From Cycloclasticus sp. (GTDB lineage Bacteria; Pseudomonadota; Gammaproteobacteria; Methylococcales; Cycloclasticaceae), in the NCBI GenBank assembly GCA_002700385.1, contig PADC01000005.1, forward strand, positions 62,001-126,000: 64,000 bases of DNA, given 5' to 3'. The number at the start of each line of letters is the position of its first letter. Within the stretch, counting starts at the first letter, position 1. Positions 11,337 to 62,175 of the stretch are shown here, one piece after another. The position numbers and the translations under genes were made by a program. The notes below the pieces were generated by a model. The model did not search any database. It saw only the letters and a program-made list of their open reading frames with translations, and was not told the DNA's origin.

Positions 11337-12071
11337 TTGCTTCAAGTTAAAAATAAATTTGTTAAACAATTGCTGGGCAGCTTTATGGACTTGCTGCCTA
11401 TTTTTGCTGTCATCTTTATTTTTCAATTATTCATCCTTCGCCAGCCTATTCCCAATATTACTGATATTGCTGTTGGCACTGGTTTTGTTGTTATTGGACT
11501 CACCCTTTTTATCCAAGGTCTGGAAAAAAGCCTCTTTCCCATCGGCGAAACCATGGCTTACGCTTTTGCAAAAAAAGGGAGTTTATTTTGGCTGCTTTTA
11601 TTCGCATTTTCATTAGGTTTTGGAACCACCGCAGCAGAGCCTGCGTTAATTGCCGTTGCTGATGAAGCGGCGCGAATTGCCGCTGAAGGCGGTCTGATCG
11701 ACGCAACCGATAATGCAAAAAATGACTATGCGCTGGGCCTACGATTGACAGTCGCTTTTTCCGTAGGCTTTGCAATTTTATTGGGGGTTCTTAGAATTAT
11801 CCGTGGCTGGCCTCTGCATTACTTAATTATTCCGGGCTATATAGGCGTCGTTACAATGACTTTTTTTGCCCCTGATGCCATTATTGGTATCGCTTACGAC
11901 TCCGGTGGAGTCACTACATCCACAATTACTGTCCCTCTTGTAACGGCCTTAGGGGTTGGGCTCGCTTCTGCCATTCGAGACCGTAACCCAATGACCGATG
12001 GCTTTGGCTTAATTGCCTTTGCTTCACTGACACCGATGATTTTTGTAATGGCCTACGGCATGATTTTGTAA
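11337..12071 (+). CDS. DUF1538 membrane protein, subunit A
   Basis: A 244-residue integral membrane protein with about six or seven hydrophobic segments. Two motifs stand out: [15 protein letters not shown] near residue 102 and [18 protein letters not shown] near 190, both repeated in the next gene. The TTG start at 11337 has a good GGAGAGG ribosome binding site about five bases before it. DUF1538 proteins also occur as a single double-length chain, so this protein and the next likely form one heteromeric unit. The conserved AEPAL and SGGVTTST stretches lie in membrane regions, as expected for a substrate path. Transport is inference; the substrate is unknown. Confidence 0.82.
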
Positions 12072-12865
12072 TGATGTTATTAAACGAAATTTTTGCGACT
12101 TTATTAAGTACATTGCGTGATGTCGCGCCAATTATTTTCGTCATTATTTTTTTTCAATTAGTCGTTATTCGTCGACCTTTTAGTCACTTTAAAAACCTCG
12201 TGATTGGAATGATTTATGTAATACTGGGCATGACTTTCTTTCTGGTTGGATTGGACAAAGCCCTCTTTCCACTGGGCACCTCCATGGCTGAACAGCTAAC
12301 CAGCGACGATTTTATCAAGCCATCAACTGATCAAAGCCTTTCCATTGCTTGGCAAGACTATTATTGGGTCTATATCTTTGGTGCTTGCATTGGCTTTGCT
12401 ACAACATTAGCGGAACCGGCGCTCATTGCTGTTGCCATCAAAGCACAGCAAATTTCCGGCGGAGCGATTAAAGCCTGGTACTTGAGAATAGCCGTTTCTA
12501 TCGGCGTTTCTGTAGGCATCTCGCTAGGCACTTATCGCATAGTCTCTGGTATAGATTTGTATCTGTTCATTATCGCCGGATACATCATCGTTATACTGCA
12601 GACCATTTTTTCACCCAAACTAATCATTGGTCTTGCTTATGATTCCGGTGGTGTTACAACATCAACGGTTACTGTTCCCCTCGTTACTGCTTTAGGCATT
12701 GGGCTGGCTTCTAGCATACCCGGCAGAAACCCTTTAATGGATGGTTTTGGACTGATCGCCTTTGCTAGCCTTTTCCCCATTATGGCTGTACTGGCCTACG
12801 CTCAATTTGCTGATTGGATTAGCCATAGAACACAACTGAAACAATTGGACCGAAAAGGAGAATAA
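12071..12865 (+). CDS. DUF1538 membrane protein, subunit B
   Basis: A 264-residue paralogue of the preceding protein. It keeps the same two landmarks ([15 protein letters not shown] and [18 protein letters not shown], then [10 protein letters not shown]), and the two genes are similar at the DNA level around these motifs, so they arose by tandem duplication. The start overlaps the previous stop (TAATG at 12069-12073); a second ATG follows at 12074. It ends in a short charged cytoplasmic-looking tail. The gene for a PII-like protein follows after 1 bp. Confidence 0.82.
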   Translation: MMLLNEIFATLLSTLRDVAPIIFVIIFFQLVVIRRPFSHFKNLVIGMIYVILGMTFFLVGLDKALFPLGTSMAEQLTSDDFIKPSTDQSLSIAWQDYYWVYIFGACIGFATTLAEPALIAVAIKAQQISGGAIKAWYLRIAVSIGVSVGISLGTYRIVSGIDLYLFIIAGYIIVILQTIFSPKLIIGLAYDSGGVTTSTVTVPLVTALGIGLASSIPGRNPLMDGFGLIAFASLFPIMAVLAYAQFADWISHRTQLKQLDRKGE

Positions 12866-12866
12866 A

Positions 12867-13217
12867 ATGCATTTTAAATTAATTGTCGTCTTTGTGGATG
12901 ACAACAAAACTGACAAGGTGCTGAAAGCCGCAAGAGATGTTGGTGCCACAGGATCAACGATTATTAATAATGCGCGTGGCGAAGGTTTAAAAAAACAAAA
13001 AACATTTTTAGGGCTCAACCTAGAAACACAGCGAGATGTCTTATTATTTTTAGTCGAAAAACATTTATGCCGAAAGATTATTGAAGAAATTTCCCGCGCC
13101 GGTTTATTTGATGAAGAACCCGGTAGCGGTATCGCACTACAAATAGATGTTGAAGATGCCATCGGTGTACTTCATCAAGCAGAAGAAATCACACAATCAA
13201 TAGAGAGCGAACTATGA
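12867..13217 (+). CDS. PII-family signalling protein without the uridylylation tyrosine
   Basis: A 116-residue PII-superfamily protein. The B-loop/C-terminal part (PGSGIALQIDVEDAIGV, about 90-106) aligns with the GDGKIF...VEDAI region of GlnB, which binds ATP or ADP. The T-loop region (about 40-58) contains no tyrosine, so GlnD-type uridylylation as in GlnB is not expected. It sits between two DUF1538 membrane protein genes and a CBS-domain gene, 1 bp after the former and overlapping the latter by 4 bp. PII proteins often control a membrane transporter encoded next to them (AmtB-GlnK, SbtA-SbtB); a similar role here is inference. Confidence 0.8.
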   Translation: MHFKLIVVFVDDNKTDKVLKAARDVGATGSTIINNARGEGLKKQKTFLGLNLETQRDVLLFLVEKHLCRKIIEEISRAGLFDEEPGSGIALQIDVEDAIGVLHQAEEITQSIESEL

Positions 13218-13627
13218 CCGATACAAAATTAATGACCGTACGCGATGTAATGAAAACCGACTTCCACCTGATAGATGGAAAAGCCACCGTTTCTGAAGCT
13301 ATTCAGATGATGAAAAAAAATAAAACATCCGTTTTATTTGTTAATAAATTTCATGAGCATGATGAATACGGCATCATCAATGCTGGCATTATCGCAAGAC
13401 TTGTTCTCGCTAAAGACCGGTCGCCAGATCGTGTTAATGTCTATGAGATAAATGAAAAACCGCTAATCAATGCCCACCCAGAAATGGATATTCGCTACTG
13501 TTCGCGCTTATTTGCACGATACAATTTAATGCGTGCCCCTGTTATGGAGCAAGGTAAAATTATCGGTGTTGTTAGCCCTATTCAGCTCGTTTTAGATGGT
13601 TTATGCGAAATATCGGGGATTAGTTAA
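13214..13627 (+). CDS. Tandem CBS-domain protein
   Basis: A 137-residue protein consisting almost entirely of two CBS motifs: VRDVMKTDFHLIDG at the N-terminus, and a second ending in MRAPVMEQGKIIGVVSP near residues 107-122. CBS pairs bind adenine nucleotides (AMP, ADP, ATP) and gate partner proteins, often transporters. It overlaps the PII-like gene by 4 bp and closes the operon. The two stand-alone nucleotide sensors behind a membrane protein pair suggest energy-status control of the DUF1538 complex. Confidence 0.85.
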   Translation: MTDTKLMTVRDVMKTDFHLIDGKATVSEAIQMMKKNKTSVLFVNKFHEHDEYGIINAGIIARLVLAKDRSPDRVNVYEINEKPLINAHPEMDIRYCSRLFARYNLMRAPVMEQGKIIGVVSPIQLVLDGLCEISGIS

Positions 13628-13660
13628 TTTTAAAAAACGATTAACCAAACCGCCCGCAAG

Positions 13661-13681
13661 CTTCTAGCCAGAAGTTTTTTT
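13661..13681 (+). terminator. Rho-independent terminator of the DUF1538-PII-CBS operon
   Basis: CTTCT (13661-13665) pairs with AGAAG (13670-13674) across a 4-nt loop, followed by seven T residues, about 34 bp after the CBS gene stop. The rest of the gap to 13897 holds only a short inverted repeat (ACGG...CCGT near 13827-13842) and no ORF that I would support. Confidence 0.6.
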
Positions 13682-61434: not shown

Positions 61435-62175
61435 ATGCATTACGTACGCTGCCCCTTTTGCCTAAGCACATTACAAGTTAGCGAAGAACAACTATCTCAA
61501 AAATCCGGCATGATTCGCTGTGGCCGTTGCAATGAAATCTTCGATGCCAACAAAAACGAACTCACGCCTGCAGCTAAAAAAATATTACTCAATAAGGCCG
61601 AAGAAACAACTAACCCACCTGATTATTCAACCGATAATGTAATACCTGTAACGGATGAAAATGAACCACCCGTCATTGCAGCTTGGGAAAACGTAAAGAA
61701 AAAGCCTGTCTATAAATTACCTTACGGCTTTCTTTCCTTTTTACTCGTCATAACCCTCATGATTCAAGTGACCTACATTGAATCGGCCGTCTTAACTCAA
61801 AGCATTCATTTGCAGCCCGTTATTAAAAAATTGAATAACGCGTATAATTTACAGATCCCCAGTTATAAAAACCTCGAAGAAATTCACATTGTTCAACGAC
61901 AATTAAGCCCTCACCCCAACCAGAGCGATCTCCTTTTGTTTCAACTCACCCTTAAAAATAATGCCCTAGTAGAACAACCTTACCCAACCATTAAACTACT
62001 CTTGACTGCCCATTCAGGAGAACCTATCGCAGAAGGCATTTTTAACCGTCATGACTATCTCGCCGATAAGGAAACAAACGACTTTTTTCCGCCCCAAGCG
62101 CTAAAAGACATAAAAATTTTATTCGAAAAACCCAACACCCACGCAGCCGGGTTTGAAATATCTTTCATACCTTAA
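61435..62175 (+). CDS. Zinc-ribbon DUF3426 membrane protein
   Basis: A 246-residue protein starting with a MJ0042-type zinc ribbon (CPFC at about 5-8, CGRC at about 29-32), a linker, a single membrane helix (about 97-117) and a DUF3426 domain on the far side. This position between prmA and dusB is conserved in gammaproteobacteria. No function is established that I can state. Confidence 0.85.
   Translation: MHYVRCPFCLSTLQVSEEQLSQKSGMIRCGRCNEIFDANKNELTPAAKKILLNKAEETTNPPDYSTDNVIPVTDENEPPVIAAWENVKKKPVYKLPYGFLSFLLVITLMIQVTYIESAVLTQSIHLQPVIKKLNNAYNLQIPSYKNLEEIHIVQRQLSPHPNQSDLLLFQLTLKNNALVEQPYPTIKLLLTAHSGEPIAEGIFNRHDYLADKETNDFFPPQALKDIKILFEKPNTHAAGFEISFIP

Follow-up and report, generated by a model that had tools for sequence, protein, structure and literature searches.

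A stretch of 64,000 nucleotides from Cycloclasticus sp. (positions 62,001 to 126,000 of contig PADC01000005.1, assembly GCA_002700385.1; hereafter the window) carries four plus-strand genes at 11337-13627 that probably form one operon for an UmpAB-type antiporter and its dedicated regulators. The genes were tightly packed, with a 1-bp overlap, a 1-bp gap and a 4-bp overlap in that order, in agreement with a first-pass annotation made from the sequence alone. The features are given below with the evidence for each.

11337-12071, + strand: umpA-like gene with a TTG start, DUF1538 membrane protein of 244 amino acids, predicted N-in/C-out (Pfam/NCBIfam, charge).
12071-12865, + strand: umpB-like gene, DUF1538 membrane protein of 264 amino acids with a basic hydrophilic C-terminus, predicted N-out/C-in (Pfam/NCBIfam, charge).
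12867-13217, + strand: ump-type PII-like protein of 116 amino acids with a PII fold, a low-confidence T-loop and a non-canonical ligand site (Pfam, model, alignment).
13214-13627, + strand: stand-alone two-CBS protein of 137 amino acids, lacking the usual Asp in either repeat (Pfam, alignment).
13658-13681, + strand: weak candidate intrinsic terminator, an 8-pair hairpin overlapping a T run (folding; absent from the consensus scan).

Both membrane proteins belonged to the DUF1538 family (PF07556), scoring 235.2 and 234.8 bits against a gathering cut-off of 22.6. They were 49 percent identical, and AEPALIAVA and a further 10-residue motif were present in both, so that two membrane paralogues with common motifs were correctly recognized in the first-pass annotation. 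As in UmpAB-type systems, two adjacent homologous subunits were encoded by overlapping genes. The E of AEP and the D of YDSGG were invariant across 33 UmpA and UmpB sequences (alignment A3) and, judged by this conservation, are likely ion or proton sites. The window UmpA was 58-73 percent identical to 18 of 19 other UmpAs and 41 percent identical to the remaining one (L090); among the matches listed, the nearest named relative was an UmpA of uncultured Cycloclasticus (89 percent identical).

UmpAB of Halomonas zhaodongensis is a DUF1538 pair and, according to the accessible text of its description, a heterodimeric Na+(Li+,K+)/H+ antiporter (PMC5484666). The umpAB genes gave salt and alkali tolerance to antiporter-less E. 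coli, UmpA and UmpB co-immunoprecipitated as a heterodimer, and antiport was obtained when umpAB were co-expressed alone, with no other genes of the locus (PMC5484666), indicating that the PII and CBS proteins are not required for transport as such. The Halomonas and window pairs both consist of homologous DUF1538 genes of similar lengths that overlap by one base and have UmpA and UmpB as their best models. They differ in that the window pair scored under the equivalog cut-offs, and in that the window operon runs on into PII-like and CBS genes; the main text of PMC5484666 mentions neither PII (or P-II) nor CBS. The ion transporter of two DUF1538 halves proposed in the first-pass annotation is thus borne out by the Halomonas work and by natural fusions of the halves, but the transporter half is a known, if little-studied, family and the label of an undescribed transport system had to be given up.

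The third protein was placed in the PII superfamily by Pfam (P-II, PF00543; 39.5 bits against a cut-off of 25). Its model had a predicted local distance difference test score (pLDDT) of 79.6, falling to 55-58 in the T-loop region. The best VIA structure match was M. tuberculosis PII (3lf0; Z 10.8 over 87 residues, root-mean-square deviation 3.9; rows within Z 1 are tied), and the best 50 structure matches were all PII-family entries or complexes by title. Residues were counted over the 120 of 135 ump-type PII hits that scored above 90 bits, divergent hits being left out. The column of GlnK K90 held I in 119 of the 120, that of R101 held G in all 120, and that of R38 held L, I, V or M in 115. 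The Tyr51 column was T or S in 110 sequences and Thr in the window, in a T-loop alignment that is gappy, while GlnK R103 gave no reliable alignment with the ump-type PIIs. The window protein therefore lacks Tyr51, Lys90 and Arg101 of canonical GlnB/GlnK proteins; we take Lys90 and Arg101 to be phosphate contacts and Tyr51 to be the T-loop site. By contrast, glycines at GlnK G35, G37, G87 and G89 were kept in 119, 119, 117 and 120 of the 120 sequences. A set of residues including G38, G40, F47, G49, E64, H66, R69, G88, D97, G100 and Q104 was invariant in 31 ump-type sequences. The GxG of the B-loop was kept in the window protein, in line with the PII B-loop region and the missing T-loop tyrosine noted in the first-pass annotation. 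By these alignments, the family has a conserved ligand pocket that differs from the nucleotide site of GlnB/GlnK. The PII-like protein therefore probably senses another ligand; the replaced phosphate-contact residues speak against its proposed role as a sensor of ATP, ADP or AMP, although nucleotides might be bound in some other manner.

The fourth protein matched Pfam CBS over two stretches (52.4 bits against a cut-off of 24), confirming a tandem-CBS protein. The Asp that usually follows the core strand, presumably the nucleotide-binding residue of the repeat, was kept in 115 of 124 relatives in CBS1 and in 79 of 124 in CBS2, but the window copy had I59 and Q124 at these positions and thus lacked both Asp residues. 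The claim that the CBS protein senses adenine nucleotides accordingly fits the relatives better than the window copy, and nucleotide binding may be a family trait weakened in the window's lineage. As a description of the whole locus, "nucleotide-gated" is a weak label on these residues.

Linkage of DUF1538 with PII and CBS genes was surveyed at 140 loci. Sixty of these came from a class sample (56 genomes with DUF1538, not counting G038, which is fragmentary, or the genome of the window), and 80 were named loci, the best-scoring 80 of at least 593 and hence biased to close relatives; three loci were duplicates (L050/L114, L063/L138, L048/L146). Searches with phmmer recovered a PII relative at 57 of the 60 class-sample loci and a CBS relative at 50; for the 80 named loci the figures were 76 and 74. 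Taken together, PII lay beside DUF1538 in 133 of 140 loci, on the transporter's strand in every case, and CBS was present in 124 of 140, again always on that strand; without the three duplicates the counts were 130 and 121 of 137. The recurrent linkage with dedicated PII and CBS partners, whose absence would have refuted the first-pass annotation, was thereby established. In 125 of the 133 loci PII lay within -60 to +120 bases of the transporter stop, a distance estimated from stop positions; gaps at single loci are approximate because some open reading frame starts are those of the longest frame only. A 4-bp overlap between PII and CBS was seen at 103 of 135 PII hits. Eight loci fell outside the -60 to +120 range: L066, where about 1.4 kb intervenes; L082, with PII and CBS ahead of the transporter; L084 and L085, whose triple-PII protein is long; L046 and L071, where the gaps are wider; L109, truncated by the contig end; and L065, in which PII is followed by a second transporter. 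Six of the seven loci without PII had at most 173 bases of contig left past DUF1538. At the seventh, L075, umpA stood apart, and umpB, PII and CBS lay together on another contig of the same genome (L076; genome G097). This split, in which PII and CBS remain with umpB, might point to UmpB as the subunit under regulation.

A dedicated PII gene, as in PII-controlled transporters of the GlnK-AmtB and SbtB-SbtA kind, was thus present at 133 of 140 loci. The linkage is far beyond chance, with Fisher values that ignore shared descent, and the PII-CBS set is real as a conserved gene module, and its mechanism is inferred.

The linkage also held in both directions at the level of genomes. A profile (A1) was built from 31 ump-type PIIs and searched in a class sample of 185 genomes, 58 of which have DUF1538. 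At E<=1e-8, 57 genomes had both, one had DUF1538 only and one had PII only; at E<=0.001, 60 genomes had a PII hit, with 57 having both, one DUF1538 only and three PII only. Two of the PII-only genomes were borderline (G001, E 4e-4; G068, 1e-3). The third, G098, was a strong hit; its contig breaks off 120 bases before the PII gene, and umpAB may thus have been lost to assembly. The single DUF1538 genome without an A1 hit, G144, carries a triple-PII protein at that place. In a phylum sample of 299 genomes, partly shared with the class sample and counted by presence rather than adjacency, DUF1538 was found in 116, PII (E<=1e-5) in 119 and both in 111.

The predominant order was umpA-umpB-PII-CBS. 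Chains in which two DUF1538 domains are fused (about 500-540 amino acids) were followed by PII and CBS at L036, L059, L070 and L077; the fused chain of L082 had PII and CBS in front, and that of L065 was followed by PII and then the contig end. A divergent fused class of 586-635 amino acids had PII beside it (L084-L089). Triple-PII proteins adjoined fused transporters at L084:335-1525 (396 amino acids) and L085:6782-7936 (384 amino acids). Their three parts gave 96.5, 98.9 and 78.7 percent against a six-sequence PII profile, the third being the weakest and the comparison having no negative control; Pfam alone recognized two stretches in L084 and one, under the cut-off, in L085. A fused PII trimer beside a fused transporter pair would suggest a trimer as the working form of the PII regulator. 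At L242 (G313), one cluster contained two PII genes together with both a fused DUF1538 protein and an unfused pair, and looks like two tandem ump systems.

Charge was distributed oppositely in the two membrane proteins. UmpA had a basic N-terminus and a neutral C-terminus (mean K+R 2.96 and 0.05 over 20 sequences), while UmpB had a neutral N-terminus (0.17) and a basic loop 1 and C-terminus (3.77 and 4.24; 13 sequences). Seven helices are predicted for each Halomonas protein (PMC5484666) and, by the positive-inside rule, UmpA and UmpB would therefore lie in opposite orientations; that paper's main text uses none of the words topology, antiparallel and inverted. The fused DUF1538 pair of L036 was modelled with a pLDDT of 86.8 and a predicted template modelling score of 0.86 (21 sequences), and showed helix breaks at or close to AEP and YDSGGVTT in both halves. 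With this model Foldseek gave no PDB match at E<=0.001 and VIA comparison nothing above Z 5.6, and no PDB chain matched a DUF1538 sequence profile at E<=1; this lack of a fold match does not establish a new fold. An alignment of fused and single DUF1538 sequences (A4) was not used, the singles seemingly all falling on one half, where all the invariant columns lie.

Kinship with the CaCA inverted-repeat exchangers was considered and is not claimed. The exchanger NCX_Mj made up 11 of the best 50 VIA rows (Z 3.7-4.9), tied with unrelated rows, and GTTxAE of DUF1538 resembles GTSLPE of the CaCA sequences compared. However, profile comparison of DUF1538 with CaCA (PF01699) gave a probability of 1 percent (15 of 27 CaCA stretches used, the other 12 being on the wrong strand); two AmtB-like profiles, one KefB-like profile and a reversed CaCA alignment gave 0.1-0.3 percent.

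From the gene order, the co-occurrence, the non-canonical PII pocket, the opposite charge bias of UmpA and UmpB and the natural fusions, all observed here, we infer orientation, trimer, docking, sign of control and ligand as follows. UmpA and UmpB would enter the membrane with opposite orientations, forming an inverted-repeat heterodimer that, by analogy with Halomonas, would exchange monovalent cations for protons. The PII-like protein would assemble into a trimer, use its T-loop to dock on the cytoplasmic side of the pair and control antiport, most likely by restraining it, in response to a ligand other than ATP or ADP. The CBS protein would provide a second cytoplasmic input. We hold it reasonably probable that the locus encodes such an inverted heterodimeric antiporter, with a PII-like trimer of altered ligand specificity setting its activity and a CBS co-regulator. 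A more specific version is tentative: a PII branch that dropped the ATP/ADP/2-oxoglutarate site may have become a brake, switched by a ligand, on a Na+(K+)/H+ antiporter made of two antiparallel subunits from two genes. What it senses would be pH, an ion or an unrecognized metabolite, and in some lineages its trimer would be fused into a single triple-PII chain opposite a fused DUF1538 pair.

Several observations weigh against this reading. The best NCBIfam models, UmpA (NF041627) for the first protein and UmpB (NF041628) for the second, scored 367.3 and 326.5 bits, below their cut-offs of 490 and 500, and the UmpA cut-off was passed in none of 369 genomes of the class. For this reason the genes are filed as a DUF1538 pair and not as UmpA/UmpB equivalogs, and the transported ion is assigned by family analogy. 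In a hydrophobicity scan UmpA showed seven segments but UmpB six, and the case for opposite orientations therefore depends on charge and on the seven helices predicted in print. At L084-L089, the divergent fused class, phmmer detected no adjacent CBS gene. Further, PII is not strictly tied to DUF1538. In the phylum sample DUF1538 occurred without PII in G347, G392, G410, G419 and G455 (G392 and G410 having partial DUF1538 matches only) and PII without DUF1538 in G203, G292, G304, G320, G356, G430, G433 and G458 (G430 and G433 being weak), and families f196 and f209 carried extra ump-type PII copies away from DUF1538 (L233, L234, L235, L237, L238, L241, L243). These copies lie near genes that we take to be argB-like, glutamate-cysteine-ligase-like, mutS-like or otherwise housekeeping-like. 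Finally, the 4.2-kb fragment cloned from Halomonas has four described open reading frames, of which umpAB are the last two (PMC5484666).

Two other explanations are each unlikely but deserve weighing. The first, close to the first-pass annotation, holds that the PII and CBS proteins both sense adenine nucleotides (ATP/ADP/AMP) and gate the transporter, with antiport following energy charge. It has a parallel in AMP-bound SbtB, which inhibits SbtA, and in the many transporters that are nucleotide-controlled through CBS domains (PMC10710835, accessible text), and both the pocket glycines of the PIIs and the Asp residues of most CBS relatives agree with it. Against this, the K90, R101 and R38 positions are replaced across the ump-type PIIs and the window CBS protein has I and Q at the Asp positions. 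In the second, a different solute is carried by the DUF1538 pair in this branch, and exchange of Na+/K+ against H+ is special to Halomonas. The sub-cut-off scores allow for this, and the Halomonas pair was the sole DUF1538 pair with an assay in the literature searched; however, the acidic residues of AEP and YDSGG are invariant in all 33 sequences, UmpA identity is high to all but one of the 19 relatives, and UmpAB homologues are discussed in the accessible text on cable bacteria, though without an assay, as salinity adaptations. Least probable is that PII and CBS are merely co-transcribed and act elsewhere (on UmpAB assembly, turnover or expression, or on another target): activity of UmpAB alone in E. 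coli shows them to be dispensable for activity (PMC5484666) and the extra PII copies fit such a role, but the two-way co-occurrence, the conserved order and the PII-CBS overlap fit a shared task, and PII proteins are known to act on transporters whose genes adjoin theirs (PMC10710835).

The surroundings of the four genes varied. Upstream in the window is an open reading frame that we take to be mutM-like, and downstream, on the opposite strand, one that is presumably gamma-glutamyltranspeptidase-like. Among same-strand clusters downstream, the most frequent (25 of 140 loci) appears from its first residues to be ampD-like, and a further one (11 loci) ampE-like; a cluster that resembles KefB was in the flank of 6 of 140 loci. 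A separate cluster recurred upstream on the opposite strand in 28 loci. A flank gene on the G098 contig was checked with Pfam and contained Na_H_Exchanger and TrkA_N. At L205:2527-4500 a Na_H_Exchanger/TrkA_N (KefB-like) gene stood immediately 3' of the CBS gene. No flanking cluster was general across loci, and the unit is therefore taken as four genes. The operon's own terminator, as claimed in the first-pass annotation, stood only as a weak candidate: a hairpin of 8 pairs at 13658-13677 leads into seven T, but the consensus terminator scan listed nothing 3' of the CBS gene and the 96-nt stretch folded only 1.48 standard deviations better than shuffles, with 16 of 200 shuffles equal. A terminator after the four genes is thus only weakly indicated.

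All five PII-family genes found in the window's genome sit by transporter-like genes, as far as we recognize the partners. Besides the one in the four-gene unit, two are canonical-looking GlnK genes that adjoin what we take to be amtB-like genes. The other two, L214:2968-3306 (contig C3) and L215:3421-3759 (C5), lie beside or near genes that are presumably P-type-ATPase-like and MerR-like. They share with the window locus a PII-family gene near a transporter-like gene, but belong to another PII branch (no A1 profile match) and have the presumed P-type-ATPase-like partner. L214 and L215 are closely similar and look like two copies of one metal cluster that has a PII branch to itself. Compared with GlnK-AmtB, the window locus likewise has a PII-fold protein whose gene is linked to a transporter gene; it differs in the absence of Tyr from the T-loop column and of the canonical phosphate contacts, in the transporter family and in the added CBS partner. 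SbtB-SbtA offers a non-nitrogen PII-like protein on a Na+-linked transporter (PMC10710835; PMC8352866), but SbtB binds many adenyl nucleotides (PMC10991534), and SbtA is a trimer whereas UmpAB is reported as a heterodimer.

In the accessible text of the open-licence literature, no paper was found that joins DUF1538 or UmpAB with PII or CBS, which is no proof of absence, and no regulator of UmpAB was found in the literature searched. Two cable-bacteria papers name UmpAB without PII in their accessible text, and a paper on pH counts DUF1538 among its key genes. The regulatory half, PII-CBS with DUF1538, is thus the part not found in the literature, and it accompanies the exchanger in most genomes examined.

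Na+/H+ antiport spends the proton gradient and therefore needs control. The system can be tested directly, since UmpAB activity is already read out in antiporter-deficient E. coli, and the pocket, conserved yet non-canonical, gives reason to search for a new PII ligand. If the PII-like protein does gate UmpAB, the reach of PII control would grow beyond the uptake of nitrogen and carbon to include pH and monovalent-cation homeostasis, and would take in a transporter reported as a heterodimer, which makes it an interesting case to test.

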